IMG/VR virus record: IMGVR_UViG_3300037245_002005
Coordinates: 1-49,304 of that record
Source of the DNA: a virus
Length of the DNA: 49,304 nt
Strand: one strand, 5' to 3'
Each line of letters opens with the position of its first letter. Position 1 is the stretch's first letter. The notes below the pieces were generated by a model. It saw nothing but the letters and a program-made list of their open reading frames with translations, did not search any database and had not been told where the DNA came from. Below, piece after piece: positions 1 to 49,304 of the stretch. The position numbers and the translations under genes were made by a program.

Positions 1-15
1 CCCTACACTCGTAGA
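1..15. repeat. 15-base terminal direct repeat, left copy; putative cos end
   Basis: CCCTACACTCGTAGA opens the window and is repeated exactly at 49290-49304. Inside it, CTAC (3-6) and GTAG (11-14) form a dyad centred at 8.5, while the repeat is centred at 8. Filled-in 5' cohesive ends of a cos phage would give such a short terminal repeat. The distance to the small terminase gene (264) resembles lambda, where cosN lies just upstream of nu1, and the large terminase is of the lambda gpA family. The alternative is a chance or assembly overlap of a circular molecule. Confidence 0.55.
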
Positions 16-24
16 CATTCAATT

Positions 25-49
25 TTTTAGGTGCGAAAGTTTTTTTTCG
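25..49 (+). other. TAGGTGC motif and small hairpin in cos-side leader
   Basis: TTTTAGGTGCGAAAG (25-39) closely matches TTTTAGGTGCAAAG at 47566-47579. CGAAA (34-38) can pair with TTTCG (45-49) as a weak hairpin. The role is unknown. It lies between the putative cos end and the GTTGAC boxes. Confidence 0.3.
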
Positions 50-51
50 TA

Positions 52-247
52 GTTGACAATCCACCCACACCCAATTTACACAAATTACATTAAAACATTT
101 ACACAAATAAGAATGAGTATCAAAGTATGCTATTCATCACGTTTCATTCAGTGCTTTGTGTTGACTATTATTATTACTAGCCTGTCAACTAGAGCCGGTT
201 TACAATTATTGGTTTACAAAAAAGGTTGACAGGTTGACAGGTTGACA
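52..247. promoter_or_regulatory. Cluster of six GTTGAC boxes upstream of terminase
   Basis: GTTGAC occurs at 52-57, 160-165, 225-230, 233-238 and 241-246, and inverted at 184-189. The last three are tandem 8-base repeats (GGTTGACA) that fill the -35 and spacer of the terminase promoter. The inverted copy CCTGTCAAC (181-189) pairs with GTTGACAGG. No gene fits in 16-263. By position these could be terminase small-subunit binding sites, like the lambda cosB R sites, or an operator. Both readings are inference. Confidence 0.5.
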
Positions 248-254
248 TTATAAT
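226..254 (+). promoter_or_regulatory. Sigma70 promoter of the terminase operon
   Basis: TTGACA at 226-231 and TATAAT at 249-254 are both full consensus and 17 bases apart. The expected start of transcription (about 261) lies only about 3 bases before the ATG at 264. No Shine-Dalgarno sequence is present, so the mRNA from this promoter would be nearly leaderless. Confidence 0.75.
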
Positions 255-263
255 ATATATTGT

Positions 264-977
264 ATGTTGGAACTGTCACAATCGGAATTTAGTAAACTAG
301 CAGGTGTTTCCCGTGCTGCCATTGGTAAAGCTGTAAAGTTTAAAAAACTATCTTTAAATAAAAATAAGAAAATAGATCCCAAGCATAAGTTATCAGTTAG
401 TTATATTAAGCAGCAAAAACAAAAAGGTAAATCAAAATCAGATTCTAAAAAATTAGATAGCAAAATTATTAAGGCACGTAATAATTTAATCAGTAAGCAG
501 TCAAAAAAGACTACTAAAAAACCATCTTCCAAAACTGGCAAGAATAAAAAAAAACCTGATGATTCTGAAGAACCTGATGTAAATAAAATAATAAATGAAA
601 TTGGTAAAGTTACTGAACAAGATAGAATTCGTGACCCTGGATTAAAATACTTAACTAAAGCTGAACTTGAACGGCAAAAGATAATTGAAGATATATTGCA
701 ACGGCAAATTAAAAATGATAAAGATCGGGAAAAATTGATTGATCGTGATTTTGTGAAAAGAATGTTTTTAGAATTATACAATATTGATGTTAATGAGTTT
801 CTTCAGTTACCAGCATTGTTATCTTCAAAGGTGTGCACTATATTCAAAGATGATGATCCGAAAAAAATAATGCAATTAAATGAAACTATAGAAAAAGAGT
901 TATACAGATCCCAGAAACATATTAAAAAAGAGATTGATAAATTTTTAGAGAAAATGCAAAAGGATGCTAAAGTATGA
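264..977 (+). CDS. Terminase small subunit (Nu1-like)
   Basis: DNA-recognition subunit of the packaging motor, partner of the large terminase at 1971. The N-terminus (about residues 4-25, QSEFSKLAGVSRAAIGKAV) is a helix-turn-helix of the Nu1 type. Residues 45-105 are a Lys/Ser-rich linker. The C-terminal half carries the LKYLTKAELER region and charged helices expected to contact the large subunit. At 237 aa it is longer than lambda Nu1 (181 aa), mostly because of the basic linker. The ATG has no Shine-Dalgarno sequence and sits 9 bases after a consensus -10. It overlaps the methyltransferase start by 4 bases. The family call rests on the HTH, the position and the partner gene. Confidence 0.8.
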   Translation: MLELSQSEFSKLAGVSRAAIGKAVKFKKLSLNKNKKIDPKHKLSVSYIKQQKQKGKSKSDSKKLDSKIIKARNNLISKQSKKTTKKPSSKTGKNKKKPDDSEEPDVNKIINEIGKVTEQDRIRDPGLKYLTKAELERQKIIEDILQRQIKNDKDREKLIDRDFVKRMFLELYNIDVNEFLQLPALLSSKVCTIFKDDDPKKIMQLNETIEKELYRSQKHIKKEIDKFLEKMQKDAKV

Positions 978-1978
978 AAAATATAAAATTATTAAATGGT
1001 GATTGTTTAATTGAAAGCGATTATATAGAGAGTGGAAGTGTTGATTTAATTTTAACAGATTTACCTTATGGAACGATTAAAGGACTTGGCGTTGGTATAA
1101 AAAAATACGATAGACTTTCTAGTAGTAATTGGGATGTTGTAATTGATACAAAAAAAATAATGGAAATATCAAATAGAATATTAAGAAAAAATGGTAAAAT
1201 GATTTTATTTGCTAATCAACCTTTTACAACAGAATTAATATCCAAAGCAATTCCAAATTTACCATATTCTTATAATATGTATTGGGATAAAATGCACTTC
1301 GCTAATTGTTTGCTAGTAAATAAAGCTCCTGTGAGTTATGTTGAGGATGTTTTAATGTTTAGTAAAAACAATCAAAAACATGACTTTGAGGGTTTTCATC
1401 CATTAAGACCGTATTTTAAAAATGTTCTTTGTTTTATTGGACTTAACTTAAAGCAGGTAAATTTTAAATTAGGACACAGAAGAGCAGAACATACTTTTTA
1501 TGTTAATTCAACACAATATTTACTATGTACCGAAAAAACATATTTAGAATTGATTAAAGTATTTGGTATTGATAAGATGTCAGGCTTTATGTCATTTTTA
1601 GAATTAAAGGAAATTGATGTAAAATATAGATCTGGGTTACTAAAAACAATGAATGATAAATTTCCAAGCACTTTTAATCTTTGGCAAGGAAGCAAATACA
1701 AGAGCAACATATTAAAATATAAAAAAGATTGCAATGGATATCATCCAACCCAAAAACCAATATTATTATTAGAGGATTTAATAAAAACTTTCAGTAATGA
1801 GAATAATTTAATTGCTGATCTAACTATGGGAAGTGGATCTACTGGTGTGGCGTGTGTAAATACAAAACGAAAGTTTATAGGAATAGAAAAAGACGATAAA
1901 TATTATAGTATAGCACATTCTCGCATTAAAAAATCTGAAAACAAAAAAACGGAAAGTCTTATAAATTATTATGAGTAA
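974..1978 (+). CDS. DNA adenine/cytosine-N4 methyltransferase (beta class)
   Basis: Probable N6-adenine or N4-cytosine methyltransferase using S-adenosylmethionine. The catalytic motif DLPYG (residues 29-33) comes first, and the AdoMet motif around LTMGSGSTGVAC lies near residue 285; this order defines the beta class. The region between (about 110-260) is long and would hold the target recognition domain. It is inserted between the two terminase genes, overlapping both (4 and 8 bases), so it is co-expressed late. Likely roles are protection of phage DNA from host restriction, or marking DNA near packaging. The target site cannot be read from sequence. Confidence 0.85.
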   Translation: MKNIKLLNGDCLIESDYIESGSVDLILTDLPYGTIKGLGVGIKKYDRLSSSNWDVVIDTKKIMEISNRILRKNGKMILFANQPFTTELISKAIPNLPYSYNMYWDKMHFANCLLVNKAPVSYVEDVLMFSKNNQKHDFEGFHPLRPYFKNVLCFIGLNLKQVNFKLGHRRAEHTFYVNSTQYLLCTEKTYLELIKVFGIDKMSGFMSFLELKEIDVKYRSGLLKTMNDKFPSTFNLWQGSKYKSNILKYKKDCNGYHPTQKPILLLEDLIKTFSNENNLIADLTMGSGSTGVACVNTKRKFIGIEKDDKYYSIAHSRIKKSENKKTESLINYYE

Positions 1979-4046
1979 TCTTGATTTATCGTTTTTATCT
2001 GATTTAAATTTTATAAAAGACCTAAACAGCCAAAAACCAACAGAACCACCAATTGGATTAATATCAGAGTTTATATCTGAACACCGTGTGATGCCATCCG
2101 GCACACCTTTTCCTGGTGCAGTAGATTTATCATTGACCCCATTTGCTATAGAGTGGATGGATAACATGTCTCCATATTCACCAGTACAACATCAAGCGAT
2201 TAAGAAAGCAGCACAGGTTGCTGCAACATTTGCTATTGAATGTATCATTGCTTATTGGATGCGAGAATACCCCACAGCGATTTTATACATGTCAGCAACT
2301 GAAAAGCTGCTTGAAAAATGGGCAACCAAAAGACTAGAACCGATGATTGATAGTTGTGGTATTAGGGATAAAATACTTCAAAATGCTGAAAATACTTTTG
2401 GTAAAAAAAGCAGAAGAACTGGTGATAAAACTTTTAGTAAATTATTTATTGGTGGTTTCCTTGAAATGGCTTCTGCACAATCTGCAAGTTCACAAAGATC
2501 TGATTCAATAAGGGTTTTAATCCGTGATGAAACTGAAGGTGCACCAAAGCAATTAACAACAGGTGAAGGTTCTTGGCTTGATACATCTGGTGCAAGGGTT
2601 AAATTTTTTGGACCACGTAAAAAAATAACTGACTTATCAACACCAGCATTATCAAAAGGTAGTTATATTGATGAAGCATATAACAATGGTGACAAAAGAT
2701 TGTATATGGTACCATGTCCAATGTGTGGGAAAAAACAGCCACTTTACGAAATACCGGAAGAAGGTAATCATGGACTGAGAGCAGACAGAAAAGGTGGTGT
2801 TATAGAAAGCGTGTATTATTTATGTGAGTTTTGCCATGATGCAATATTCGATACATCGAAATATCAAATGTTTAATGGTGGCAAATGGCAACCAACTGCT
2901 GTTTCAATGTCTAATGTGTATAGATCTTATTATATTAATTCACTTTATTCACCAACAGGAACAGTTACATGGCGTGACTACTATGATCAATGGGATAAAA
3001 TAAAAACAGACCCTGATAAAGAAAGAGGTTTTAATAATTTGTGGGCTGGTTTAAGTCATGAAGAAACTGGATCAAGACCAAAAATTGAATCTATTCATCA
3101 TCTAAGGGGTAAATATGAAGAAGGTTCAATTCCTGATGATGTATTATTTTTAACTGCTTCTGTTGATGTTCAGATTGGTAAAGAAGAATATCGTAAAATG
3201 ACAATTGAAGATTTAGAGCTTGAAATAGCTGATGCAAAGAAAAAAGGAAAAGTGTTGCCGTTCCCACGGCTTGAATTAGAAATACTTGGTCATGGTTATG
3301 GTTATAGAACTTGGTCAATAATGTATAAACGCTTTGAAGGTGATATTTATGATTCTATAGAAACTGGTGCATGGGGTAAATTAACAGATTTTTATAAAGA
3401 TCTTGCAAAAGATTCTGACATTGTAAATGATGGTTTTAGAATGCCTAGTATAAAACGTTCAGATGGTTATAATTTCGAGATACCAATAACATTTATTGAT
3501 GCTGGTGATGGTAATATGAAGGATATAGTTTATAATTATACACACCAGTTTTCTGGCTTTTATCCTTCAATGGGTGTTAATAAGTTATCAGACATTCATA
3601 AACGTGGCGATGTTGAGACAACACATGACAGGGCACGATATAAAATTAAAAAAGTTGGATCAGATTTGTTTGCATATATTATTGCCACAAATCATTATAA
3701 AAAAGCTATCTATCATAGGTCTAAAACTGGCCGTCAATCATTTGGGCAACAGCGCCCGGCATTTATGGATCACCCAAAAGAATATGATGAAAGATATTTT
3801 AAAATGCTTTTTGCTGAAGAACATTTATCTGATGGTTCATTTGATGCAAAAGGTAGACCGAATGAAGCATTAGATTTAAAAGTATATAATATGTGTGCTG
3901 GTGATGTTTGGCTTGATATGTTGGTTGACCATTGGCGCAGAGTTAAACATGATCAGGGGCATAGCATTCAGCAATGTAAAAATGAAATAGATACAGTTTG
4001 GGTTTTAAAGTATCTTGAAGACATTACAAAAAAACAGAAAACTTAA
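1971..4046 (+). CDS. Terminase large subunit (lambda gpA family)
   Basis: ATPase and nuclease of the packaging motor. The N-terminal ATPase domain has a deviant Walker A, KAAQVAATF (residues 79-87). It aligns with lambda KSARVGYSK: the leading Lys is kept, but the Gly and the final Lys are not. A Walker B-like LIRDET lies at 183-188. A zinc-ribbon-like pair (CPMC, later CEFC) lies near residues 250-290. The C-terminal nuclease domain starts with SVDVQ and continues with FIDAGDGN, both typical of the gpA family. At 691 aa it is close to lambda gpA (641 aa). gpA-type terminases normally cut at cos, which agrees with the terminal repeat. Confidence 0.93.
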   Translation: MSNLDLSFLSDLNFIKDLNSQKPTEPPIGLISEFISEHRVMPSGTPFPGAVDLSLTPFAIEWMDNMSPYSPVQHQAIKKAAQVAATFAIECIIAYWMREYPTAILYMSATEKLLEKWATKRLEPMIDSCGIRDKILQNAENTFGKKSRRTGDKTFSKLFIGGFLEMASAQSASSQRSDSIRVLIRDETEGAPKQLTTGEGSWLDTSGARVKFFGPRKKITDLSTPALSKGSYIDEAYNNGDKRLYMVPCPMCGKKQPLYEIPEEGNHGLRADRKGGVIESVYYLCEFCHDAIFDTSKYQMFNGGKWQPTAVSMSNVYRSYYINSLYSPTGTVTWRDYYDQWDKIKTDPDKERGFNNLWAGLSHEETGSRPKIESIHHLRGKYEEGSIPDDVLFLTASVDVQIGKEEYRKMTIEDLELEIADAKKKGKVLPFPRLELEILGHGYGYRTWSIMYKRFEGDIYDSIETGAWGKLTDFYKDLAKDSDIVNDGFRMPSIKRSDGYNFEIPITFIDAGDGNMKDIVYNYTHQFSGFYPSMGVNKLSDIHKRGDVETTHDRARYKIKKVGSDLFAYIIATNHYKKAIYHRSKTGRQSFGQQRPAFMDHPKEYDERYFKMLFAEEHLSDGSFDAKGRPNEALDLKVYNMCAGDVWLDMLVDHWRRVKHDQGHSIQQCKNEIDTVWVLKYLEDITKKQKT

Positions 4047-4075
4047 TTGACTTTTTTTAGGATATGAAATATAAT
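4047..4075 (+). promoter_or_regulatory. Putative promoter before the gpW-like gene
   Basis: TTGACT (4047-4052) and TATAAT (4070-4075) are 17 bases apart in the 34-base gap after the large terminase. The expected transcription start falls at the ATG at 4081, so a transcript from here would be leaderless. The only Shine-Dalgarno-like AGGA is too far upstream. Confidence 0.5.
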
Positions 4076-4080
4076 TAACT

Positions 4081-4356
4081 ATGTCTTGTCTTTCAGCCAC
4101 CAGAAGAACCGCATTAATTGCACGTAGAGATAAATTGATAGCACAGATTGCTGCAGCTGAAACAACTTTAGACAATGCAATTGAACGTGGTCATCTAACT
4201 AGTATTGAAATGGATAGTGGTGATGGAAAAGAAAAATCATCATATAGAAACCCGGAAGATTTAAGAAAGTTTATAAATAATCTTGAACTAAGTCTTGAAA
4301 GAGTGTTAAATACTTTGGCCTGTCGTGGCGTTGTTAATTTTGCATTGAGGCGATAA
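4081..4356 (+). CDS. gpW-like head-tail connector protein
   Basis: Small head-completion protein, expected to bind the portal and complete the connector. In 91 aa it shows a first helix, then a short turn with DGKE and YRNPEDLRKFINNLELSL. This matches the gpW pattern of a short beta turn followed by S/N-x-x-DL-x-x-Y/F-I-x-x-LE. It lies between large terminase and portal exactly as W does in lambda. Its stop and the portal start share TAATG. Similarity is by pattern and position, not alignment. Confidence 0.7.
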   Translation: MSCLSATRRTALIARRDKLIAQIAAAETTLDNAIERGHLTSIEMDSGDGKEKSSYRNPEDLRKFINNLELSLERVLNTLACRGVVNFALRR

Positions 4357-6026
4357 TGGATTTTTTTGGCTATCAAGTAACATTACCATCATTTAAAAAA
4401 GTTGTACCAACTAAAGGTGTAAATGCTAATAGTCCACAAAATAATTTTAGGGTTGGTAGTAATCGGTCTGGTTCACAGGGTGGTGATTATCGTTCTGCTG
4501 GTGCTAAATGGCCGGGTGGGCTTCCTTCTTCTTATGGTGAATTTACCTATGATCATTATGCTTTACGTCAAAATGGGCGGTCAGCATATCAAGATTCAAT
4601 TCATGCGCATGGACTAGTTACAAGATGGGCAGATTCTGTTGCCGATACTGGTTTAAGATTAGATTGTAATCCACTTCATAGAGTTTTAGGTATAACAGCC
4701 AAAGCAAGAGATATATGGGCAGCAGATACTGAAGAACGTTTTAATTTATGGGCAGTCAGCAAAAATCAAAATAGACCAAATGTTTTAAATTTTTATCAAT
4801 CGCATAGGTTTTATCAAAGAAATAAAAAAAGAGATGGTGAAAATTTCATTAGATTCTACTATGCAAATGATATTGATTTAATAAATAAGCTACAATTTGA
4901 GTTTATAGATCCAAATCAAATCCGTGGTGATGCATATACTAGTACACTTGGTCCATTTGCAAATGAAGATGGTATTGGTCGTGATGATCGAGGACGTGAA
5001 GTTGATTATAAGGTTTGGAACACTAAATTGGTTGATGGTGTTTCTTCTGTAAATTATGGAACTATTCCACGTATAGGACCTAAATCAAAACGGATAATGA
5101 TGCTTCATTGTTATGAACCAGAATATTGTGGTCAACAACGTGGATTTTCAGGGCTTGCACATTTTATTCAAGAGTTTTCAAAGGTTACAGATTTTACTTC
5201 TGCACAAATCCAAAAAGCTATAAATCAAAGTAATATTGTTTTTACTGTTGAAAATCAAATTCAAGATCCTAGTAATCCAACAGCAGATATGCCAATGACA
5301 AGGCCGGGTGGTCAAGCTTGGGGTCAAAAAGCATCAACAACTGAAGGTGCAGGTTCACTTGCAGACTCATGTTTTGATCCTACATTAGAACATAGTTCTT
5401 TACCTGAAGTAGAATTTAATGTTCCAGGAAGCACATCTTTTTTTAATACCCGTCAAGGTGATAAATTAACACCAGTAAAAGACACTGCACCATCTGATGG
5501 TTTTGGTGAGTTTATGGATTCTTTTCTATCTAATTTAGTTTCATCAGATTCAATGCCTTTAAGTGTTTATAAAATGAAAATGGAATCGTCTTACTCTGCA
5601 GCACGTGGTGAACTACTTCTTTTTTATCGTTCTGTAATGATACAAAGAGAGGAACAATCATCTGATTATCTTAATCCTACGTTTGAAATGTGGTTGTGGG
5701 AAGAGATTGCTGCAGGAAGAATAAAAGCGCCCGGATTTGCTAAAGATCCTATATTAAGGGCTGCTTGGCTTAATTGTTCTTGGATTGGTGCACCGATGCC
5801 AAATATTGATATGTTACGTACTGCAAAAGGTGAAAAAGAATATCTTGCAATGGATTATACCACTGGTGAACGTGGGGCAAGGGAACATAATGGTTCTGAT
5901 TTTAAAGCAAATACATTAAAAAATAAAAAAAGTTTTGAAGAAATGCCAGCGCCCTTTTGGCTTAAGGATGAACGGCTTTCAAAACAGGGAGAAAATAACG
6001 ATGGCAAATCCACAATACCCGGTTAA
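4356..6026 (+). CDS. Portal protein (lambda gpB-like)
   Basis: Dodecameric channel at one capsid vertex and docking site for the terminase. The N-terminal part contains the RWADSVADTGLRL region and a wing-like middle with HCYEPEYCGQQRG. The C-terminal half includes SLPLSVYKMKMESSYSAARG-like residues, the region that marks lambda-type portals around the crown and clip. Its 556 aa match the family (lambda gpB 533 aa). The gene order terminase, gpW, portal is lambda-like. It overlaps the next gene by 26 bases. Confidence 0.9.
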   Translation: MDFFGYQVTLPSFKKVVPTKGVNANSPQNNFRVGSNRSGSQGGDYRSAGAKWPGGLPSSYGEFTYDHYALRQNGRSAYQDSIHAHGLVTRWADSVADTGLRLDCNPLHRVLGITAKARDIWAADTEERFNLWAVSKNQNRPNVLNFYQSHRFYQRNKKRDGENFIRFYYANDIDLINKLQFEFIDPNQIRGDAYTSTLGPFANEDGIGRDDRGREVDYKVWNTKLVDGVSSVNYGTIPRIGPKSKRIMMLHCYEPEYCGQQRGFSGLAHFIQEFSKVTDFTSAQIQKAINQSNIVFTVENQIQDPSNPTADMPMTRPGGQAWGQKASTTEGAGSLADSCFDPTLEHSSLPEVEFNVPGSTSFFNTRQGDKLTPVKDTAPSDGFGEFMDSFLSNLVSSDSMPLSVYKMKMESSYSAARGELLLFYRSVMIQREEQSSDYLNPTFEMWLWEEIAAGRIKAPGFAKDPILRAAWLNCSWIGAPMPNIDMLRTAKGEKEYLAMDYTTGERGAREHNGSDFKANTLKNKKSFEEMPAPFWLKDERLSKQGENNDGKSTIPG

Positions 6027-6267
6027 TATAGCCGCTGGTGCATGGGTAAAAGTTGCAACAAACGTTACAACAGGTGTAATACATAAGATGTTAAAAGGGA
6101 CATATTTTCAGACCTATAGACTGACTGGTGAAGATGCACCGATAACAAAAGATGAAGCTGTGAAAGTGTTTATGGATAAGCCATTAACTGAAGACATTTT
6201 ATCGTCTGTTGGTATTGATGTTTATATATGGAATGATGTCGTTGGAATCATTCGGGTTGATGTATAA
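6001..6267 (+). CDS. Small hypothetical virion-region protein
   Basis: 88 aa starting MANPQYPVN. This ATG is chosen over an upstream one at 5935 because GGGAG precedes it, while the upstream start would lie inside the portal gene. The protein looks like a small mixed alpha/beta domain without signal peptide or membrane segment (NVTTGVIHKMLKGTYFQTYR, later VGIDVYIWNDVVGIIRV). It overlaps the portal end and abuts the next start. Lambda has no gene here. A head-associated role is inferred from position only. Confidence 0.6.
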   Translation: MANPQYPVNIAAGAWVKVATNVTTGVIHKMLKGTYFQTYRLTGEDAPITKDEAVKVFMDKPLTEDILSSVGIDVYIWNDVVGIIRVDV

Positions 6268-7010
6268 TGATTGGCAATAAGGGCATTTTTGGGATAACCA
6301 AAGGTCCAGGGTATAATGTAATAAATAAATTTGGTGTAAATCTTGATATAGATACAGGTTCTACGCCTGAAACTATATGGGCACATGGCGGAGTATTTCC
6401 TTTCATTGATGCTGGTATTGCAATGGACATTGTTTCTTCTAGTGCGAATGATACACTTGAAGGAACGGGCGCGCAAAAAATAAGAGTAACATTCTATCAA
6501 GCAGATAATACGGAAATAATTCAAGATTTTGATATGGATGGCGTAACACCTGTTCAAATTAATGATGATATTAAAATTTGTACTCGTATTGAAGTTATTC
6601 AGACAGGCGCAGGTATGTCGAACGCTGGTGAAATAAATCTTGTCGATAGAGCTACAGGACTGGTTGTTTACCAATCTGTAGAAATTGGCGAAGGACAAAC
6701 TTTGTCTGCTATACAGATTTGTCCTAAAAACAAAAAAGGGCTTGTTAGGAAACACACTGTTACTTATGCAAAAGAACAAAATCCACTGGGATCTGCTGAT
6801 ATTAGATTTAATATAAGAAAATCAAACGGGTCAATACTTGTCAAGCATTCTACCGTAATTTCTGCTATAAAAGATTTTGACAAAGTTAAATATGATGTTG
6901 GCGGAATAGAAATGTCAGAAGGTGATATTTTTTATTGCGAATGTATTGCTGTAACCGCTGCTGACACTCCAATTGAAGCCCGTTTTGATATAGAATTTCA
7001 GGATAGTTAA
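6267..7010 (+). CDS. Beta-rich phage structural protein
   Basis: 247 aa, mostly beta-strand-like, with no signal peptide. Residues 38-70 (ETIWAHGGVFPF then VSSSANDTLEGTGAQKIRV) match a motif set I recall from virion structural proteins of several marine phages, in which an IWxxGGxYPF-like segment is followed by SSSAxDTxxGTGARTV. It therefore probably coats or decorates the virion, perhaps the head or a head fibre. It sits between portal and prohead protease, where lambda has nothing, next to another beta-rich gene. Confidence 0.6.
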   Translation: MIGNKGIFGITKGPGYNVINKFGVNLDIDTGSTPETIWAHGGVFPFIDAGIAMDIVSSSANDTLEGTGAQKIRVTFYQADNTEIIQDFDMDGVTPVQINDDIKICTRIEVIQTGAGMSNAGEINLVDRATGLVVYQSVEIGEGQTLSAIQICPKNKKGLVRKHTVTYAKEQNPLGSADIRFNIRKSNGSILVKHSTVISAIKDFDKVKYDVGGIEMSEGDIFYCECIAVTAADTPIEARFDIEFQDS

Positions 7011-7011
7011 A

Positions 7012-7773
7012 GTGATAGGGGCAGGAAGAAAAGAATTTGACGTTAACATTCAGGATCAAACAACTGAACCAATAAATGATTATTTCCTGCAATCAATTTC
7101 TAATTTTTCACTTGTTGTTGATACTGGCGTAAGCGGAACAACAAATTTGATTTTTACTTTTACGGCAGCAGTAGGTCATTTATTGATAGTAGGAAAAGAA
7201 CTAATATTGCTGGATGTTGCGTCTGATCGGAGTTTATATGCGGTAGTAGTTGGTGTTGCTGGTGACGACATTACAATTGACAGACCAATAGATCATGATT
7301 TTAAATCAGTTTCTACACTTGGACGAATAACTACATCCCAAATGAATGTAGCTGGAAGCCAAGCATCACCACAAATCTTTTCAGTAAGAGCAGGATCTAT
7401 TCCACAAGATTTTACAAAATTTAAAATAACAATGACTGATAACTCTGCTATGGACGATGAAAAGTTTGGTGGTTTGGCTGCACTAACAAATGGATTAGTT
7501 TTTAGAATTAATAATAGCTTTCAGAAAACAATCTTTACGTTTAAAAAGAATGGCGATTTTGCACAGTACGGTGCGACAAAATACCCTGACAAAGTTCCGG
7601 CAGGTACGTTTGCATTTAATGCATCTCTTGATTTTGGTGGACAAAATCAAAGGGGCGTTGTTTTGAGAATATCTGATACTGATGTTTTGCAATGGATTGT
7701 AACCGATGATTTAAGTGCAGGTGCTTCTTTTAGAATTTCTGCAATTGGGCATAAAACAAAAGGTGAGACATAA
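7012..7773 (+). CDS. Beta-rich structural protein, GTG start
   Basis: 253 aa, no signal peptide, high Thr/Ser/Val/Ile content and many short alternating segments typical of beta-sandwich virion proteins. The GTG at 7012 is one base after the preceding stop, with the purine stretch of the previous gene's end (AGGATAG) as ribosome site. Together with 6267 it forms an extra head-region cassette that ends just before a new promoter (7793). I do not recognise a specific family. A decoration or fibre role is inference. Confidence 0.55.
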   Translation: MIGAGRKEFDVNIQDQTTEPINDYFLQSISNFSLVVDTGVSGTTNLIFTFTAAVGHLLIVGKELILLDVASDRSLYAVVVGVAGDDITIDRPIDHDFKSVSTLGRITTSQMNVAGSQASPQIFSVRAGSIPQDFTKFKITMTDNSAMDDEKFGGLAALTNGLVFRINNSFQKTIFTFKKNGDFAQYGATKYPDKVPAGTFAFNASLDFGGQNQRGVVLRISDTDVLQWIVTDDLSAGASFRISAIGHKTKGET

Positions 7774-7792
7774 AAAAAAGTTAAAAAATGGT

Positions 7793-7821
7793 TTGACATA
7801 AAAATAGATATGTAGTATACT
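7793..7821 (+). promoter_or_regulatory. Internal sigma70 promoter for the capsid genes
   Basis: TTGACA (7793-7798) and TATACT (7816-7821) are 17 bases apart in the 103-base gap before the protease gene. The expected start is near 7828. It would boost protease, scaffold, decoration and major capsid expression over the genes upstream. Confidence 0.8.
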
Positions 7822-7833
7822 TTAGATAGTTCA

Positions 7834-7876
7834 GTTTGACATGGAGGTCAAACATTGCCCATGGAGGGGTTGCTGA
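7834..7876 (+). promoter_or_regulatory. Leader hairpin and 11-codon leader frame before the protease gene
   Basis: GTTTGAC (7834-7840) pairs perfectly with GTCAAAC (7847-7853) around the loop ATGGAG. CATGGAGG occurs at 7840-7847 and again at 7860-7867, where it serves as the ribosome site for ATG 7877. A frame of 11 codons (7841-7876, ending CPWRGC) stops at the base just before ATG 7877. Whether it is translated is unknown, since it has no clear ribosome site of its own. Confidence 0.4.
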
Positions 7877-8989
7877 ATGAAAATAATTTCCATACGTGGT
7901 ACTATTGGTTGGGACGTAACGCCTGACGATATACGTAATCAATTTAAAGATGCTAAAGGTGATATTATTGTTGAAATTGCTTCACCTGGTGGTTTTGTTT
8001 ACGATGGTCTTGATATTTTCAATTTAATTCGTGATTATAAAGGCGGAAAAGTAACAACTAAGTTAATGGGAATTGCTGCTTCTATGGCGTCTGTTATTGC
8101 CCTTGCTGGTGATAAAGTAATCGCTCATGATAATGCAGTTTTTATGATTCATAATGCTTCAAATATCGTTTGGGGCAATCATCTTGAAATGCGAGAAATG
8201 GCAGATCATTTGGAAAAAGTTTCTAATCATCTAGCTAAGATTTACGTTCGTAAAACAGGGAAATCAATAAGCGAAATAAAAGAACTGCTTGATGCAGATG
8301 GTGGAAGTGGAACTTATCTATTTGGTGACGAAATATTAAAAGCTGGATTTGTTGACGAAATAATTGAAAGCGATGATTCAGATACACTCGATAAAGATTC
8401 TTCTATACTAACCGCAATGATGGAAATTGAAAATTGTACAAATAAATTAAAAGAATCTGAAAATTCTAAAAAAGATTTACAAAAAGCTGCTGCCTCTCTT
8501 ACTCCTATGGCGCAACCAAAAAATAATACTGACATTTCCCCGGCTACTCCGGGAATTGTAAATTCAAAAATTAAGGAAGAAAATACTATGAATGAGTTAG
8601 AAAAATTTCTTGCTGCAAACCCCGGAGCAAAAGCTGATTATGACAAGGCTATTGCATCTGCTGTTAAGCAAGGTGAAGAAAAAGTTAATGCACGTATTGA
8701 AGTTGCAAAAAACTATATTGGTAATGATAAATATCCAACCTTGTCTGTATTGGCAATGAAGGTTATTAACGGTGAAATTGATGCACTTGCACTTGAATCT
8801 GCAGTTGCTGTTATTGATGCAACTATTGCAAAAACTGGATCAGATGCTGCTATTGACGAAACCCAAAAACTTGGTGATACTGGTGCTGAAGGTGGAAAAC
8901 CTGTAAACGATTCAGGCGATTGCGAAAATGATGCTGATCTTGATCAAGAGATTGCACGAACTAAAAAACAAAATGGTGATGTAAAATGA
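7877..8989 (+). CDS. Prohead protease, ClpP-type, fused to scaffold (lambda C-like)
   Basis: Capsid maturation protease. Residues 1-165 are a ClpP/S49-type serine peptidase domain. Ser69 in GIAASMAS and His92 in MIHNAS are the probable catalytic residues, and SPGG (36-39) is the usual substrate-groove loop. Residues 180-230 are a linker. Residues 238-370 form a helical, charged scaffold domain that can also be made alone from an internal start (see 8588). This fused protease-scaffold layout is that of lambda C/Nu3. The start at 7877 follows GGAGG. The stop overlaps the decoration gene start by 4 bases. Confidence 0.9.
   Translation: MKIISIRGTIGWDVTPDDIRNQFKDAKGDIIVEIASPGGFVYDGLDIFNLIRDYKGGKVTTKLMGIAASMASVIALAGDKVIAHDNAVFMIHNASNIVWGNHLEMREMADHLEKVSNHLAKIYVRKTGKSISEIKELLDADGGSGTYLFGDEILKAGFVDEIIESDDSDTLDKDSSILTAMMEIENCTNKLKESENSKKDLQKAAASLTPMAQPKNNTDISPATPGIVNSKIKEENTMNELEKFLAANPGAKADYDKAIASAVKQGEEKVNARIEVAKNYIGNDKYPTLSVLAMKVINGEIDALALESAVAVIDATIAKTGSDAAIDETQKLGDTGAEGGKPVNDSGDCENDADLDQEIARTKKQNGDVK
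8588..8989 (+). CDS. Nested in-frame scaffold protein (Nu3-like)
   Basis: Within the protease gene, ATG 8588 is in frame (codon 238) and is preceded by AAGGAAGAAA, a good ribosome site. The product of 133 aa (MNELEKFLAANPGA onward) is the helical C-terminal domain alone. In lambda, Nu3 is made in this way from the 3' part of C and acts as the assembly scaffold. The internal ribosome site is visible. Actual use of it is inference. Confidence 0.65.
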   Translation: MNELEKFLAANPGAKADYDKAIASAVKQGEEKVNARIEVAKNYIGNDKYPTLSVLAMKVINGEIDALALESAVAVIDATIAKTGSDAAIDETQKLGDTGAEGGKPVNDSGDCENDADLDQEIARTKKQNGDVK

Positions 8990-9744
8990 GTGTAGAAAAT
9001 TCTGTTGACATCAATACACGTCCACTAATTCTTGAAGAATATCCTGTTGCTGTCCGTAAAGATGACGCAGTTATGAAGCAAGATGCCGGGCGTACTACTG
9101 TACTAGCGAGTAAAACACTTGTTGGTAAACTTGCCGTTGCTGCTGCCGTTGCTGCAGCTGCTGATGCGGGTAACACTGGTGATGGTACTGTTACCGTCTC
9201 AACTGTTGTTGGTATCAATGCTGCTGGTGAAAAAATAATTCCTAAAGTTGGAATTTGGCTATTAACTCTGACTGCTGCCTTGGTTGCAACACTAACTGAT
9301 CCAGATGGTGTTGATAGAGTTACTGGAATTGCATTGAATGATGGAACAACAACCGTTGTTAAATATGCAGGTCTTCAGTTTACTGTTACAGATGGTGCAA
9401 TAGCGTTTATTGCTACTGATGAATTTACATTAACCGTTGCTGTTGATGGTGACTATACACCATATGATCCAGCATCTGTTCTTGGTGCAGATAAACCTGC
9501 AGGATTTTATGATCCAGAAGGAAATCTTGGTGAAATAACTGCTGCTGCACTTGTTGCAGGTGACGTTGCTGATGTTCCAGTTTTAATTGCTGGTGCTCTT
9601 TTTGATTCCGAAATGCTTGTAATGGAAACAGGCGCTTTAACTGACATGGTTGCTGATACTGGTCTAACAGTAGAAGAGTATTTGCGACGCGTAAGCTTGA
9701 TAGCAGAAAATGCAATTTCAAATTCAAGCCCTGAAAACTCATAA
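8986..9744 (+). CDS. Head decoration protein (gpD-like) with inserted beta domain
   Basis: Stabilises the expanded capsid. The N-terminus carries a gpD-like start (RPLILEEYPVAVRKDDAVMK) and the end has the VPVLIAGALFDSEMLV region. Between them, about residues 48-155 form an extra beta-rich domain (GNTGDGTVTV, VGIWLLTLT, GLQFTVTDG) often found joined to phage decoration proteins. At 252 aa it is more than twice lambda gpD (110 aa). It overlaps the protease end by 4 bases and lies just before the major capsid gene. Confidence 0.8.
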   Translation: MSVENSVDINTRPLILEEYPVAVRKDDAVMKQDAGRTTVLASKTLVGKLAVAAAVAAAADAGNTGDGTVTVSTVVGINAAGEKIIPKVGIWLLTLTAALVATLTDPDGVDRVTGIALNDGTTTVVKYAGLQFTVTDGAIAFIATDEFTLTVAVDGDYTPYDPASVLGADKPAGFYDPEGNLGEITAAALVAGDVADVPVLIAGALFDSEMLVMETGALTDMVADTGLTVEEYLRRVSLIAENAISNSSPENS

Positions 9745-9761
9745 AAGGAGAGTTAAATAAT

Positions 9762-10967
9762 ATGGCAACACCAAATCCAACAGATCAATATACCCGTTTC
9801 ATGGTGGGTATGTTTGATGAAAGAGATCAACAAGGAATACCAACAGCTTTTCAATCATTTTTTGGAAACAATGCTGCAAGTGAAACAGTTTTTGAACCGG
9901 ATGCAGGAACGATTGAAATCGATATTATTCGTGCAAATGGTGAGCGTTTAGCCCCACTTGTGCACCGTGGCCAATCATCTAAGGATGTTAGTCGAGGTAA
10001 AAATTTAACTGATGAAGAATTTTCAAATTTTGTCCGTAAATGGCCATTGATTGAAAAAGAAGGTAACATTAATTCACAGCAATTGCTCAATAGGCTTGCT
10101 GGTGATAATGCTTTCCAACGTAGATCTAAGTTAGATAAAAACCGTCAATTAGCTAGGAAGATTCATTTTAGTCAAATACGTGAAAGCGTAAGAACTTGTG
10201 AATTGCTTGCTTCCCAATCAATTTTGGAAGGTGTACAGGATGCTATTCTTGATACATCAAATACAGCGCTTCAATATGATTTTAGAAGAAAATCTACCCA
10301 TAATGTAAGCGTTGAGGAATATTGGGATGGTGAAAGTGCTGCTATTATGGATGATCTTGATGCTGCATGTGATCTCAGTGAAGCCGATGCATATGTTACA
10401 CCTGATTTTTTAGGTCTTGGTGATAAAGCTATTGCTGCTCTGATACGTGATACAGAAATGCAGACACTAGCCGACAACCGTAGATATAAAATCATACAGG
10501 TAAGCCAAAACAATCCAGTTCCAACTGAATATGCTAAGTATATAAAAGCCGGATGGACTGCACGTGGACTTTTAATGACATTGAGTGGTCGTGAATTGTG
10601 GATGTTTACAAACAATCAGAGATATACAAATGATTCTGGTGCTTCTACTCGTTACATGCCATCTGACAAAGCGTTTCTTTTGAATACAAATGCACGTCTT
10701 GATAAATATTTTGGTCCACGTGATTCATTTGATCCAACCCCTGCTGAAGCAACTTGGATGCAGCAAATGTTTGGTTTCAGTGTAAACTCTGCACCTATTC
10801 CGCAAAATGTTGCTGTTACTGGTGTAATTGATCCACGTATGTTTTATTTTGATGGATATATGGGAAAAGGTCGTAAAACTCAGACATTAAGAGCACAATG
10901 CGCACCGATATTTCCAACAACTCAGACTGATACAATCATTGTTCTTTCTGATTTGATAACACCATAA
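9762..10967 (+). CDS. Major capsid protein (lambda gpE family)
   Basis: Main shell subunit, 401 aa (lambda gpE 341 aa). Recognisable family features are the N-terminal DQYTRFMVGMF, the FEPDAGTIEIDIIRANGERL strand region, and LAPLVHRGQ before the long spine helix. A C-terminal segment (WMQQMFGFSVNSAPIPQNV) leads into the last strands. It has a strong ribosome site (AAAGGAGAG) and follows the decoration gene as in lambda. No cleavage site is obvious. Confidence 0.92.
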   Translation: MATPNPTDQYTRFMVGMFDERDQQGIPTAFQSFFGNNAASETVFEPDAGTIEIDIIRANGERLAPLVHRGQSSKDVSRGKNLTDEEFSNFVRKWPLIEKEGNINSQQLLNRLAGDNAFQRRSKLDKNRQLARKIHFSQIRESVRTCELLASQSILEGVQDAILDTSNTALQYDFRRKSTHNVSVEEYWDGESAAIMDDLDAACDLSEADAYVTPDFLGLGDKAIAALIRDTEMQTLADNRRYKIIQVSQNNPVPTEYAKYIKAGWTARGLLMTLSGRELWMFTNNQRYTNDSGASTRYMPSDKAFLLNTNARLDKYFGPRDSFDPTPAEATWMQQMFGFSVNSAPIPQNVAVTGVIDPRMFYFDGYMGKGRKTQTLRAQCAPIFPTTQTDTIIVLSDLITP

Positions 10968-10984
10968 CACAAGGATAAGGAACT

Positions 10985-11389
10985 ATGTCTGATAAAAAAT
11001 TGTTTTGGATAAATAAAAAAGGCGTTCTTGGTGTTGGTAAAAACTGCACCAAGTATGGTGAAGAAATAGATGTTAAAAAAATAGGTAAAGCTGTACTTGC
11101 AAAACATGTACAGCTTGGGAACATTGGCCAAATGGCCGTTCCTCCTGTTGCTGGTGATCAAAAAAAGATCATTGAGCTTGAAGGGAAAATTGCTTCTTTG
11201 AAAGATGAAGCAAAAAAACCAAAAGACAGTGATGCTGATATTGAAACATTGAAAGCTGAATTTGATGAAGAAATTTCTAAAAAAGATGAAGAACTTGAAA
11301 AAGTGGAAGCAGATTTTAAAGAAGTTATTGATGCAAAAGATGCTGATATTGAAACATTGAAAGCTGAATTAAAAAAGGCGACTAAATAA
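10985..11389 (+). CDS. Coiled-coil hypothetical protein with internal repeat
   Basis: 134 aa. The N-terminal 55 residues form a small domain (MSDKKLFWINKKGVLGVGKN). The rest is a highly charged coiled coil. DADIETLKAE appears twice, encoded by a perfect 32-base direct repeat (11231-11262 and 11339-11370, 36 codons apart). It occupies the place of lambda FI, after the capsid gene, and could be a packaging or head-completion helper, but there is no sequence proof. Its stop overlaps the next start. Confidence 0.55.
   Translation: MSDKKLFWINKKGVLGVGKNCTKYGEEIDVKKIGKAVLAKHVQLGNIGQMAVPPVAGDQKKIIELEGKIASLKDEAKKPKDSDADIETLKAEFDEEISKKDEELEKVEADFKEVIDAKDADIETLKAELKKATK
11231..11370 (+). repeat. Two perfect 32-base direct repeats within a coding region
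   Basis: The same 32 bases occur at 11231-11262 and 11339-11370, both in the same reading frame (108 bases apart). They encode the repeated coiled-coil segment DADIETLKAE and suggest a recent in-frame duplication. Confidence 0.85.
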
Positions 11390-11745
11390 TGAAATTGCCT
11401 AAAGGCATAAAAATCAAAATCAATAATCGTACTTACCAGGGAGAAATTCCTGGTAATATTACAGTTAGCGTTGCACAAAAAAAGCTGATCAAAGATTTTG
11501 AAGAACGTGTTGTTAGTTGCAAAAACAAAAATTTTTCTATGGCAAAAAAAAGAAAAGTTATAGAAGAAGAAAAAAAAGAAACTGCAAAAAAGTTGAAACG
11601 TGAAGCAGCAAAAAAGATTGAAGATGCAAAAAAGCAATCTGAAAAAACTGCCGATGTTTCGCCTGCTGCTGAAGATGATGATGTTGAAGATGATTCAACA
11701 GGTAAAGATGATTCAACAGGTAAAGATGGTAAAGCCAAGAAATAA
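11389..11745 (+). CDS. Lys-rich hypothetical protein with tandem DDSTGK repeat
   Basis: 118 aa. Residues 1-45 form a short ordered part (MKLPKGIKIKINNRTYQGE). The remainder is Lys/Glu-rich, probably helical, and ends in a disordered acidic tail. There an 18-base tandem repeat (11689-11706, 11707-11724) encodes DDSTGK twice. It is translationally coupled to the neighbours. Family not recognised. Its place between capsid and neck genes suggests a head-linked protein. Confidence 0.5.
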   Translation: MKLPKGIKIKINNRTYQGEIPGNITVSVAQKKLIKDFEERVVSCKNKNFSMAKKRKVIEEEKKETAKKLKREAAKKIEDAKKQSEKTADVSPAAEDDDVEDDSTGKDDSTGKDGKAKK

Positions 11746-11747
11746 AA

Positions 11748-12143
11748 ATGAGTAACAACAGGGATCTACTAAGAAAAGACATGAATGCAATTCGTGATGA
11801 TTGGTGGATTCCTATTATTTTAATTTCACCTGATGGAGTTCCTTACAATAAACAGGTCGGAACTGAAAATGATTTACTTGGTGGTACCCGAAAAGATCCA
11901 AAGCTATTTAATGATGAAAATGGTAATCCTGTAACCATTAAGGCTTCGACTATAACTATATTGGTTGCTGACCTTGAAAGAGTTCCAGCACAGGGTGAGC
12001 AATGGATTGTAAAATACCCAAAAGGTTTAATTGCTTCTGGTGAACTTGTTACGGCAGCTTTTACTGCAAATAATGAAGAAGCTGGTTCTGATTCATTAGG
12101 TTATATAAAAATATTTCCACAGGCTGTTAAGGTGGTTGCATAA
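11748..12143 (+). CDS. Putative head-tail joining (neck) protein
   Basis: 131 aa. Features are a WWIPIILISPDGVPY start, a middle segment NPVTIKASTITILVADLERVP followed by GEQWIVKYP, and a C-terminal strand GYIKIFPQAVKVV. This resembles the fold order of small gpFII-like head-completion proteins: helix, then beta barrel with a GD/Q-x-W-x-V turn. It lies between capsid and sheath, where neck proteins are expected. Function is inferred mainly from position. Confidence 0.5.
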   Translation: MSNNRDLLRKDMNAIRDDWWIPIILISPDGVPYNKQVGTENDLLGGTRKDPKLFNDENGNPVTIKASTITILVADLERVPAQGEQWIVKYPKGLIASGELVTAAFTANNEEAGSDSLGYIKIFPQAVKVVA

Positions 12144-12736
12144 TGATGAATTTTAGAACATTAAAAGCAAATATTGTTACTTTACTTGCTGATAATGCTA
12201 ATGGAAATTTTCAGGTTGTTCAGGCTCAAAGGCAAAAAGAAGGTGCTGAAGATATTAATCTTTTGCGTAAAGTAGCTGTTTATTTTGCCACAAATGATTT
12301 ATCTGAAAACAAAGGTACTACAAATGGTGAACTTGTAACAAAACCGACTTACCACATTGAATTAAAAGTTGCTGAAAAAGGTACTTTAACTGATATTACT
12401 GATCCAACTACTATAACAAGTGCTGAAATAATCGCTGATGATGCACTTGATGAATTATTTGAAAATGTTCTTCAAATAATAATGGATGCAAGAAACATTG
12501 ATTTAGAACTGCCAGTTGGAACTATTTCTAATAGATATATTAAGAGTTTAATAAAAGGAAGCCCAAACCAACACGGTGAATTTGTTGTTTTGGTCGGAAG
12601 GATGGATTTGGATTGTAATTTAGCTGAATCTATCCTTGGTGATGAAGGCGTTGAAGGTACTAATATTGATAGTACATTAGAAATAAACGGTGATGGTACT
12701 CAGGCAACTGGTATAAACGAACCACAAACAGAATAA
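12143..12736 (+). CDS. Putative tail terminator/neck protein
   Basis: 197 aa, overlapping the previous stop. It begins with a helix (MMNFRTLKANIVTLLAD), followed by alternating strands with KPTYHIELKVAEKG and later NRYIKSLIKGSPNQHGEFVVLVGRMDL. The layout (N-terminal helix, strands, long helix, strands) and its position directly before the sheath gene fit a tail terminator, like Mu gp37 before the sheath gene L. No diagnostic motif is visible. Confidence 0.45.
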   Translation: MMNFRTLKANIVTLLADNANGNFQVVQAQRQKEGAEDINLLRKVAVYFATNDLSENKGTTNGELVTKPTYHIELKVAEKGTLTDITDPTTITSAEIIADDALDELFENVLQIIMDARNIDLELPVGTISNRYIKSLIKGSPNQHGEFVVLVGRMDLDCNLAESILGDEGVEGTNIDSTLEINGDGTQATGINEPQTE

Positions 12737-12752
12737 AAAAAAGGACAATAAC

Positions 12753-14315
12753 ATGACAGTAAATGAAAATTCATTAGCACCTGCAAACGCAGTAAGTGGT
12801 CAAAATGTACCACAATCAATAGCACCATCAGTTTTAAAAAGAAAATTAATAATAATTGCAACGTATGATCCAGCACTAACTGCTGTTGTTCCTGAAGTTC
12901 CTGTTAGAGTTTTATCTGCAAATGCTGTTGGTGACCAATTTGGTTTTGGTTTTATGGCTCATAGGCTTGCAATTAAGGCTTTTAAAACAGCACCTGGTGC
13001 TGAAATTTATATACAACCACAGGAAGAAGAAGCTGCTGGTACACAGGCTGCCGGGTCAATTTTGATTGACACCGCACCTGGTGTTGCAGGGTCTATCTAT
13101 GTTTATATAGCTGGTGAACTTGTAAAAGTTAATGTTGCTACCGATGATGATGAAGCAGCCATTGCAGGGCTTATAATTGCAGCAATTAATGCCGATAAAA
13201 CCCTTCCTGTCACTGCACTTGTTAATGCTACACCGGAACAACTTGATATTACTGCAAAGTCTGAAGGTGATTATTATGGAAATGCTATCACAATAGATAC
13301 AAATATTTATGGTGAAACTGATATTGGTGCACTTGCCTACACTATAACTGCTATGACTAGTGGTGTTGGTACACCTGATATAGATGATGCGCTTAATGCC
13401 CTTGGTACTGGTTCTGGTCAAAATGGTGATAATTACACTGATTTGGTTCATGGTTATGGTCCAGTGACTGCTGTTCTTGATAAAATCAGCACTTACAACG
13501 GTATTGCTGATCAAAAATCAGGGAATTATTCTGAACTTGTTCATAGACCTTTTAGATCCGTTAATTGTGATACCGCTGCTGGTTCTGGTGGTTTATCTGC
13601 ATTAATCGTAATTGGTAATGGTAGAAAAACAGATAGAAGTTCTGGTATTATTGGTGTCCCTGGTTCGGCTTCACATCCTGCAGAGATTGCAGCACAGATT
13701 ACTGGTTACATGGTAACTCAAAACAATAAACAAGCTGAATTATCATATCGTGGTTTTATTCTTGATGGTATTCATACAGGTGCTGTTGCTGATAGATGGA
13801 CTGATGATTATGATTCTGGTCGGGAAGCTGCAGCACAGGCTGGAATTTCTTGCACATTGGTTAAATCTGGTTCTGTAACACTTCAAAATGCATTAACTTT
13901 TTATCATCCAGATTCAATACCTGTTGATTCTAATGCATATAGAAACATGCGTAATATTTCTATATTACAGAATATTTTTGCAGCGGTTGATCTTCAATTT
14001 AGTTTGCCAAAATGGCAACAGTTTTCTGTTGTAAAAGATTTGGCAAAAGTTGGAAATGTTAGCAGCCGTAAAACTGCAAAAAGTCCATCAAGTGTAATTG
14101 ATGATTGGATGTCATTGTTTACTGCTTTTGCTGGTAGAGCATGGATTGCTGATTTAAATTTTTCGGTTAATGCTTTAAAAGAAACAGGTGCAGTTGTTAT
14201 TCGTGGTGCTGGAAATGGTTTTGATGTTTTACCAAAATTTATTTTTAGTGGTGATGGTGATATCATAAATACAAATATAGAGTATGATACATCTTTTGCA
14301 ATATTAAATCAATAA
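12753..14315 (+). CDS. Contractile tail sheath protein (Mu gpL-like)
   Basis: Outer tube that contracts on infection, so the virion is a myovirus. 520 aa. The N-terminal part (APSVLKRKLIIIATYDP) matches Mu-type sheaths. About residues 95-200 hold an inserted Ig/beta-like domain, followed by VHGYGPVTAVLDKIS. The C-terminal half has the sheath core (FDVLPKFIFSGDGDIINTNI at the end). It has ribosome site AAGGACA and is followed by the tube gene, as in Mu. Confidence 0.9.
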   Translation: MTVNENSLAPANAVSGQNVPQSIAPSVLKRKLIIIATYDPALTAVVPEVPVRVLSANAVGDQFGFGFMAHRLAIKAFKTAPGAEIYIQPQEEEAAGTQAAGSILIDTAPGVAGSIYVYIAGELVKVNVATDDDEAAIAGLIIAAINADKTLPVTALVNATPEQLDITAKSEGDYYGNAITIDTNIYGETDIGALAYTITAMTSGVGTPDIDDALNALGTGSGQNGDNYTDLVHGYGPVTAVLDKISTYNGIADQKSGNYSELVHRPFRSVNCDTAAGSGGLSALIVIGNGRKTDRSSGIIGVPGSASHPAEIAAQITGYMVTQNNKQAELSYRGFILDGIHTGAVADRWTDDYDSGREAAAQAGISCTLVKSGSVTLQNALTFYHPDSIPVDSNAYRNMRNISILQNIFAAVDLQFSLPKWQQFSVVKDLAKVGNVSSRKTAKSPSSVIDDWMSLFTAFAGRAWIADLNFSVNALKETGAVVIRGAGNGFDVLPKFIFSGDGDIINTNIEYDTSFAILNQ

Positions 14316-14326
14316 GGAGATAGTTT

Positions 14327-14707
14327 ATGTCAGACGTTTCAGGATCGTTAAGAGGGGTGTCGCTTGATGGTACTTCATTTAGAGTACCAGCAGATGCAGA
14401 TGTTACAATGAAATTTTCATCGTTTGAAACTGAAGGGATACCAACTTCAGGTGATACGATGTATAAAAAAACAATTATATCACCAAATCATGAAGGTGTA
14501 CCATTAACTGTTAATGGCGATGAAATTGAACTTTTGGAAGAGCTTGCAGCTCGAAATGAGCCATTTCCAATGTCAGTGAATCTTGCAAGTGGCGATGAAT
14601 TCAAATGCCAAGGTATGATAAATTTTGGTGATACAGGATCTGCAGATATGAAAGCAGAGGTTGATCTTATTCCTTCAAACGCATTGACAGGATGGAACAG
14701 GTTTTAA
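14327..14707 (+). CDS. Tail tube protein (Mu gpM-like)
   Basis: Inner tube subunit, 126 aa, close to the 118 aa of Mu gpM. It starts MSDVSGSLRGVSLDG and contains FRVPADADV, an EGIPTSGDTMYKK loop and the family-typical ADMKAEVDLIPSN strand near the end. It sits between sheath and tail assembly chaperone in the usual order, with ribosome site AAGGAGA. Confidence 0.88.
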   Translation: MSDVSGSLRGVSLDGTSFRVPADADVTMKFSSFETEGIPTSGDTMYKKTIISPNHEGVPLTVNGDEIELLEELAARNEPFPMSVNLASGDEFKCQGMINFGDTGSADMKAEVDLIPSNALTGWNRF

Positions 14708-14732
14708 AATTCAATAAACATAGGAGCTGTTT

Positions 14733-15182: not shown

Positions 15183-15346
15183 TTCCTACAGCACACCAAA
15201 TTTGTGGGAACTTATTTTCACGTGGTCAATCTATCTCTGATATTGAAGCGTTAGATTGGGAGGGTCTTAAGTATTGGGGTCATTGGCACGATGTTATGAC
15301 TGCTGAAGAAAAAAAAGCTGTTGATGAAGCAGGAGGAAAAAAGTAA
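14733..15346 (+). CDS. Tail assembly chaperone, -1 frameshift fusion
   Basis: Predicted product of joining 14733-15173 with 15173-15346 after a -1 slip at T TTT TTG: 147 + 57 = 204 aa. The second frame has its own coherent sequence (SVVPTAHQICGNLFSRG, then DWEGLKYWGHWHDV) but only a poor GTG start, which favours frameshifting over separate initiation. Long tailed phages commonly make two chaperone forms in this way. The second frame's stop overlaps the tape measure start (TAATG). Confidence 0.72.
15167..15211 (+). promoter_or_regulatory. Programmed -1 frameshift signal
   Basis: The slippery heptamer T TTT TTG (15167-15173) is followed after 8 bases by a hairpin. GTTCCTACA (15182-15190) pairs with TGTGGGAAC (15203-15211) over 9 positions with one G-U pair and a 12-base loop. 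The zero-frame stop TAG (15180-15182) lies between slip site and stem. This is the standard layout of a bacterial -1 signal. Confidence 0.78.
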
Positions 15347-19798: not shown

Positions 19799-19817
19799 GT
19801 ATGGTATAATATAAAAT

Positions 19818-47960: not shown

Positions 47961-48674
47961 ATGCCCCTTCAAATTAAACCAGACTTCAAACAATTTAATA
48001 AATTCAAAAAACTTGGTAAATCTCAAACAATCGGTGTAATCAAAAGATCAATCAGAGCAACATTGAATGATCAAGCTTATTCAACTCAAAAACGTGCTAA
48101 ATTCGTTGAACTACCTAGATCAATGACAGTACGTGGTAAATTCAATCAATCAAGAATTAAAGTAACAACCGCCCGTGGGCGTGATATGACTGCAGAAGTT
48201 GGTGATATATCAAAGGGTACATATCTTGGTTTATTCAACCTTGAAAAAGGTCTATCTGAAAATAACAAAGCAATCCCACATCTTCAAGAAAGACGTGGTG
48301 GCAGTCGTAAACGTAAAATTGGTAAATCTAAGCGATTGAATAGTAAGCCTGTACGCAATGTTAGGACTGGTGGCGCTCTCAGTAAGTTATCTATATCTGG
48401 TTACAAAGGTCTATTCAAGATGGTTAATAAATCAACTAAGCTTAATCCTGGTATATATCAATTCTATGGCAGAACTACAATAACAACTAATGGATTTAAA
48501 AGACGTAAAATAGAGATGGTATATGATACACAACATCCAAAGACTAAAGCTAATAGAAACAAATGGTTAGAGCGTTCCACTAGACACGGTGCATCAGCTA
48601 AGCTAACTAAACGTTTTTGGCAACGTAATCAAAAAAGAATGTTGGATAAGGCCTTGCAAAGACTTACTACATAG
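47961..48674 (+). CDS. Basic virion-like protein (minor tail/neck type)
   Basis: 237 aa, extremely basic. The start (KPDFKQFNKFKKLGKSQT, then RSIRATLNDQAYSTQKRA) and the segment TAEVGDISKGTYLGLFNLEKG follow a phage virion protein pattern: N-terminal 'xDFxxFxxxLxxL', then 'ALNDTAxxxxxxx', then a 'F-x-KG-xx-YL' part. Such proteins are usually encoded among tail genes, but here it stands alone under its own promoter at the other end of the genome. DNA binding is an alternative because of the high Arg/Lys content. Confidence 0.5.
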   Translation: MPLQIKPDFKQFNKFKKLGKSQTIGVIKRSIRATLNDQAYSTQKRAKFVELPRSMTVRGKFNQSRIKVTTARGRDMTAEVGDISKGTYLGLFNLEKGLSENNKAIPHLQERRGGSRKRKIGKSKRLNSKPVRNVRTGGALSKLSISGYKGLFKMVNKSTKLNPGIYQFYGRTTITTNGFKRRKIEMVYDTQHPKTKANRNKWLERSTRHGASAKLTKRFWQRNQKRMLDKALQRLTT

Positions 48675-49245: not shown

Positions 49246-49251
49246 TAAAAC

Positions 49252-49281
49252 AAAAAAGGTACTGTAACCCACTCCTTTTTT
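49252..49281 (+). terminator. Weak hairpin with T-tract right after the promoter
   Basis: AAAAAAGG (49252-49259) and CCTTTTTT (49274-49281) can pair over 8 bases with a 14-base loop and the stem's T run at the end. It begins at the expected transcription start. Being A/T-rich, its strength as a terminator is uncertain. Confidence 0.4.
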
Positions 49282-49289
49282 ACCGAAGG

Positions 49290-49304
49290 CCCTACACTCG
49301 TAGA
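49290..49304. repeat. 15-base terminal direct repeat, right copy
   Basis: Identical to bases 1-15 (CCCTACACTCGTAGA). See the left copy for the cos interpretation. Confidence 0.6.

Follow-up and report, generated by a model that had tools for sequence, protein, structure and literature searches.

The left part of the window (the whole analysed stretch of 49,304 nucleotides, virus record IMGVR_UViG_3300037245_002005) carries four genes on the plus strand. The first encodes the small terminase subunit TerS (264..977; phrog_57, E 2.8e-8), for which a structure model predicted an N-terminal winged helix. It is followed by a DNA methylase gene of the N6_N4_Mtase type (974..1978; PF01555, E 5.5e-28), by the gene of the large terminase subunit TerL, a gpA-family protein with ATPase and nuclease parts (1971..4046; PF05876, E 1.9e-43 and PF20454, E 7.5e-33, both matches exceeding the curated cut-off), and by a portal protein gene of the lambda family (4356..6026; PF05136, E 2.3e-37). 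A head protease, a major head protein and a tail sheath were identified downstream of the portal by profile search. Genes run rightward from 1 to 25 kb and leftward from 25 to 47 kb, two rightward genes stand at the end of the record, and the skew switches sign in step with gene direction. The layout looks like that of an entire tailed-phage genome, opened immediately left of TerS.

A previous sequence-only reading had placed a small terminase gene about 250 bases right of the end repeat and had called the large terminase gpA-like, and the profile matches bear out both assignments. It did not mention the methylase gene that separates TerS from TerL. This is one of two N6/N4 DNA methylase genes in the window, the other being located at 38091-38828, and a gene other than TerS also directly precedes TerL in one relative, L106. 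No near DNA relative of 1-20000 was found among phage records, where TerL identity reaches at most about 28%.

Terminal repeat and coincident contig ends

As the sequence-only reading had stated, the 15-mer CCCTACACTCGTAGA was found at 1..15 and, as an exact copy on the same strand, at 49290..49304; end-to-end comparison showed that the identity stops at 15 bases. These are the candidate left and right copies of a cohesive-end sequence (cosN). Allowing up to three mismatches, the 15-mer (G+C 8/15) occurs in the two end copies and nowhere else in the window, while dinucleotide shuffles gave a mean of 0.26 copies and never two. Base composition puts the probability of a chance 15-base agreement between the ends at approximately 5e-9 for any 15-mer at all and at 2e-10 for this particular one.

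The repeat contains a dyad with arms CTAC (3-6) and GTAG (11-14), centred at 8.5, half a base from the repeat centre at 8.0, exactly where it had been described. The dyad was previously described as what a symmetric terminase dimer making staggered nicks would be expected to leave. It is real but weak evidence when taken alone, because an equally good near-centre dyad occurs in 2.2% of shuffled 15-mers (P ~0.02), and its offset equally allows a 16-base overhang. It is mostly absent from the relatives described below; L108 has a dyad CCTC/GAGG centred at 8.0, where the middle of a 15-base end would be.

A second contig, IMGVR_UViG_3300043219_000075, is 100% identical to 1-19400 over 19,400 bases (19.4 kb) and starts at the same base. 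It is likely to come from an assembly other than that of the window, since one assembly would hardly keep two identical copies apart, and perhaps from a sister sample. This sibling also bears on the origin of the 15-mer. A common Illumina adapter also contains a stretch that starts with CCCTACAC, and adapter or primer residue at both ends was considered; the remainder of the 15-mer has no adapter match, and in viral_contigs the 15-mer is terminal only in the identical sibling, with three other matches internal to unrelated contigs. The adapter explanation was rejected on this absence from the ends of unrelated contigs, and its probability is negligible.

Using alignment-based searches, TerL relatives with 38-47% identity were found in other metagenomes. 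Six of the contigs (L016, L017, L018, L020, L105 and L108; 5.6 to 43.8 kb, separate IMG metagenomes) begin 11-176 bases ahead of the start of TerS. When their first 40 bases were stacked without gaps at base 1, with the window not used, 209 pairwise matches were counted, against a mean of 148 (sd 10.7, maximum 192) in 20,000 random-start draws, and the result persisted without L020 or with the window added. Shift zero gave the best individual fit for L017, L018, L105 and L108 and a poorer one for L016 and the window, the latter fitting better at shift one. The motif T[G/C]CG is located at 32-35 in the window and in the same four contigs, and one base later in L016. TGTC is present at 6-9 in five of the six relatives, and the core of the window lies one base off the TCG core of the relatives. 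The coincident starts of the identical sibling and of the divergent relatives show termini fixed at one site, and contig ends at the same base across separate assemblies are best explained as physical DNA ends.

An arbitrary break in a circular or permuted genome, with a short overlap left over, was considered as a source of the repeat. Circular contigs can indeed keep end overlaps from assemblers, but the usual k-mers are longer than 15. Such an artefact also leaves unexplained that a second, truncated contig begins at the same base, that the register of the start is shared by relatives assembled from other samples, and that the break falls just left of TerS with a landmark spacing that is conserved and is seen uncut in L154 (next section). 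We regard this origin as very improbable.

End repeats were absent from the contigs of L016, L017, L018, L020, L022 and L024, most of which are plainly fragments, and the 43.8-kb contig of L017 is among those with no end repeat. No right-end contigs of relatives were found when searched via the right-end protein. As both ends were found for none of the relatives, the length and polarity of the overhang are read from the window alone. In the more distant 32-kb contig L022, TerS follows ~109 bases after the contig start, and GGTAACA occurs four times as inverted iteron pairs; this suggests that positions 1-109 of L022 are arranged like the ends described above and that such ends extend to more distant parts of the gpA family.

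Uncut junction in L154 and landmarks beside the proposed cut

The contig L154, from a Desulfobacteraceae MAG and with a TerL 46% identical to that of the window, runs through the corresponding region. Directly left of its TerS lies a homologue of the right-end gene of the window (47961..48674, plus strand; 29% identity, E 8e-10); it is the L154 homologue that was assigned to the minor tail protein family phrog_4688. The order across the junction is the right-end gene homologue, GGTACTGT, GGTGCG-N4-TTTTTTTTCG (GGTGCG-N4-T8-CG), iterons and TerS. In this relative, the counterparts of the two ends of the window are thus joined and uncut, from the right-end gene homologue to TerS via a landmark-flanked site.

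In the window, GGTACTGT is located at 49258..49265 on the plus strand, 24 bases before the left nick, and is a cosQ-like landmark; GGTGCG-N4-TTTTTTTTCG is located at 30..49, also on the plus strand, as a conserved segment between cosN and the candidate cosB. The distance from GGTACTGT to GGTGCG is 61 bases start-to-start, in L154 and in the joined window alike. GGTGCG-N4-TTTTTTTTCG has a sole copy in the window and in L154. The 8-mer GGTACTGT occurs three times in the window, and for this reason its spacing and position, not its presence, are the evidence. The cut maps to L154:1276, the best gap-free register for -60..+60 and for 15..60; over -40..0 this register ranks third, one match short. 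The nick site proper has diverged in L154. The arrangement of the L154 junction fits a cosQ-cosN-cosB plan.

The pattern GGTACTGT-N(52-54)-GGTGCG was also searched in viral_contigs, where no TerS or TerL was found with the matches listed (at least 80 loci), and these were set aside as chance hits. GGTACTG upstream of TerL showed no clear excess among 217 relatives (16 forward, 10 reverse), with the exception of L154. An inverted repeat AAAAAAGG...CCTTTTTT at 49250-49282, resembling a terminator hairpin, surrounds GGTACTGT in the window, and the GGTACTGT of L154 likewise lies inside an inverted repeat (GGTGC...GCACC). A homing-type HNH_3 endonuclease gene (48767-49210) is located directly left of the right end of the window; it is probably a mobile insertion and not a part of the packaging machinery, because it is absent at the same place in L154.

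Iterons and the TerS DNA-binding domain

GTTGACA occurs five times in 1-263, out of 11 copies genome-wide. The first copy (52..58, plus strand) is an R3-like candidate TerS site, the second (183..189, minus strand) has the opposite orientation and is an R2-like candidate, and three tandem copies (225, 233 and 241; 225..247, plus strand) are R1-like candidates that overlap the likely TerS promoter. Compared with dinucleotide shuffles, the excess in the window has a P of 0.012. The same kind of test gave P 0.002 for six GGTTAAG in L154 and P 0.004 for three CCTAACG in L108, and the four GGTAACA of L022 were matched by 0/500 shuffles; no significant iteron excess was found by the shuffle test in L016, L017, L018 and L105. 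The sequence of the iteron differs among several relatives while its location is the same, and in the window, L154 and L108 the iteron series begins near base 50.

The IHF consensus WATCARNNNNTTR is absent from the candidate cosB (1-263), and the window has no lambda-type IHF site between the R3- and R2-like copies. The simple cosB of the N15 type likewise has no IHF site (PMC4669245). The predicted N-terminal domain of TerS (pLDDT 85-90) matched the DNA-binding domain of lambda gpNu1 (1j9i), with a Z of 5.8 and an rmsd of 2.6 over 60 residues, values at which many MerR-type domains score alike. On the evidence of sequence and position, the iterons could be TerS sites of a cosB-like element or, instead, operators of the TerS promoter. 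Among the TerS proteins, that of L017 (L017:117-971) contains extra sequence similar to the FtsK/SpoIIIE-like profile phrog_13700 (E 2.8e-5, residues 80-158), and one of the aligned TerS proteins has a match to PF09397, the FtsK gamma domain (4.7e-7).

Proposed cos site and comparison with known systems

We consider the window to be the virion genome, linear and complete, of a phage with a contractile tail, and 1-15/49290-49304 to be its 5'-overhang cos nick site, at a probability of roughly 0.88. Without the duplicated end, the window comprises 49,289 unique bases. The 5'-overhang reading was already put forward from the sequence, and it is now well supported, mainly by evidence from beyond that first reading: the start of the sibling contig, the relatives in register and the uncut junction in L154. 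The terminase types also support it.

In the proposed mechanism, TerS would bind the iterons at 52-247 (cosB-like), and the gpA-type TerL would make staggered nicks in concatemers, in the top strand before base 1 and in the bottom strand after base 15 (or 16). The products would have complementary single-stranded 5' extensions, 15 or possibly 16 bases long, which would anneal after infection and circularise the genome. GGTACTGT, which lies 24 bases to the left of the cut, may end packaging in the manner of cosQ. During library preparation the 5' ends would be filled in, placing the overhang at both contig ends, and the assembler would stop at cos because few reads span the joint. According to the PhageTerm authors, end repair fills in 5' overhangs, giving the two ends an identical sequence over the overhang, and removes 3' overhangs, and assemblers make a cos end the limit of a contig when few reads span it (PMC5557969). 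From this fill-in we infer the 5' polarity of the ends; the exact overhang length and the protein-DNA roles are likewise deduced. An overhang of 16 bases, with one base lost at the right end, is possible, because 16 is the length predicted if the nick lies before base 1 and the dyad has its centre at 8.5.

Coincident contig ends speak for fixity and not for polarity, and would also suit 3' overhangs, blunt ends or a genuine direct terminal repeat, very short and produced by duplication. Trimming of 3' overhangs by end repair would leave no shared end sequence, however, and the smallest terminal repeat known to the same source is 131 bases (PMC5557969); TerL is also of the gpA family. Ends of these other kinds are quite unlikely, and the 5'-overhang cos site is retained as the preferred reading.

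The lambda-like cos sites of lambda, 21 and N15 have 12-base 5' ends and a cosQ-cosN-cosB order. The R3 TerS site of lambda includes the critical bases 56 and 59, its R2 lies in reverse orientation, and seven conserved bases make up cosQ (PMC4669245). Shared with this group are the gpA-type TerL, the predicted gpNu1-like winged helix in TerS and the lambda-family portal, as well as the order of cosQ-like element, nick site, conserved segment, iterons and TerS, with the first iteron near base 50 (cf. lambda R3) and one iteron reversed. In contrast, the window has 15-base ends of unrelated sequence, no IHF consensus, a methylase gene between TerS and TerL, a contractile-tail sheath gene and an otherwise unrelated genome. 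The term lambda-type, as used in the sequence-only reading, is apt for the enzyme and the layout, but not for the end sequence or its length of 15 instead of 12 bases.

P2-like phages share the contractile tail and a short fixed end sequence, but their 5' ends are GC-rich and 19-20 bases long (PMC5247547, PMC5557969), whereas those of the window are 15 bases of other sequence with 8/15 G+C, at a site that adjoins a lambda gpA-type terminase gene set. HK97-type 3' cos sites share fixed staggered ends near the terminase genes; their 3' overhangs, in contrast, would leave no shared end sequence, the TerL of the window is gpA-type, and its right-end HNH gene is a homing-type one (HNH_3) with no counterpart at the L154 junction. 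A 15-base cohesive end was not found named in the literature in the wordings tried. The cos site is an ordinary, hitherto undescribed example of a well-known mechanism, with a lambda-type terminase and an end length and sequence unlike those of the lambda-like and P2-like groups.

The identical 15-base ends very probably arise because the sequence stops at the true DNA ends of the phage, sticky ends cut by the packaging enzyme, and the genome in this 49-kb record is very probably complete even though its 15-base repeat is shorter than the end repeats that usually signal completeness. The ends of uncultured-phage contigs, compared across divergent relatives, can locate cos and its recognition elements without virion DNA. 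There is about an even chance that the site represents a distinct cos family of gpA-type phages, which would be characterised by 15-16-base 5' ends, the GGTACTGT cosQ-like element, T[G/C]CG fixed 31 bases inside the left end, lineage-specific iterons changing with TerS, and relatives in Desulfobacterota MAGs.
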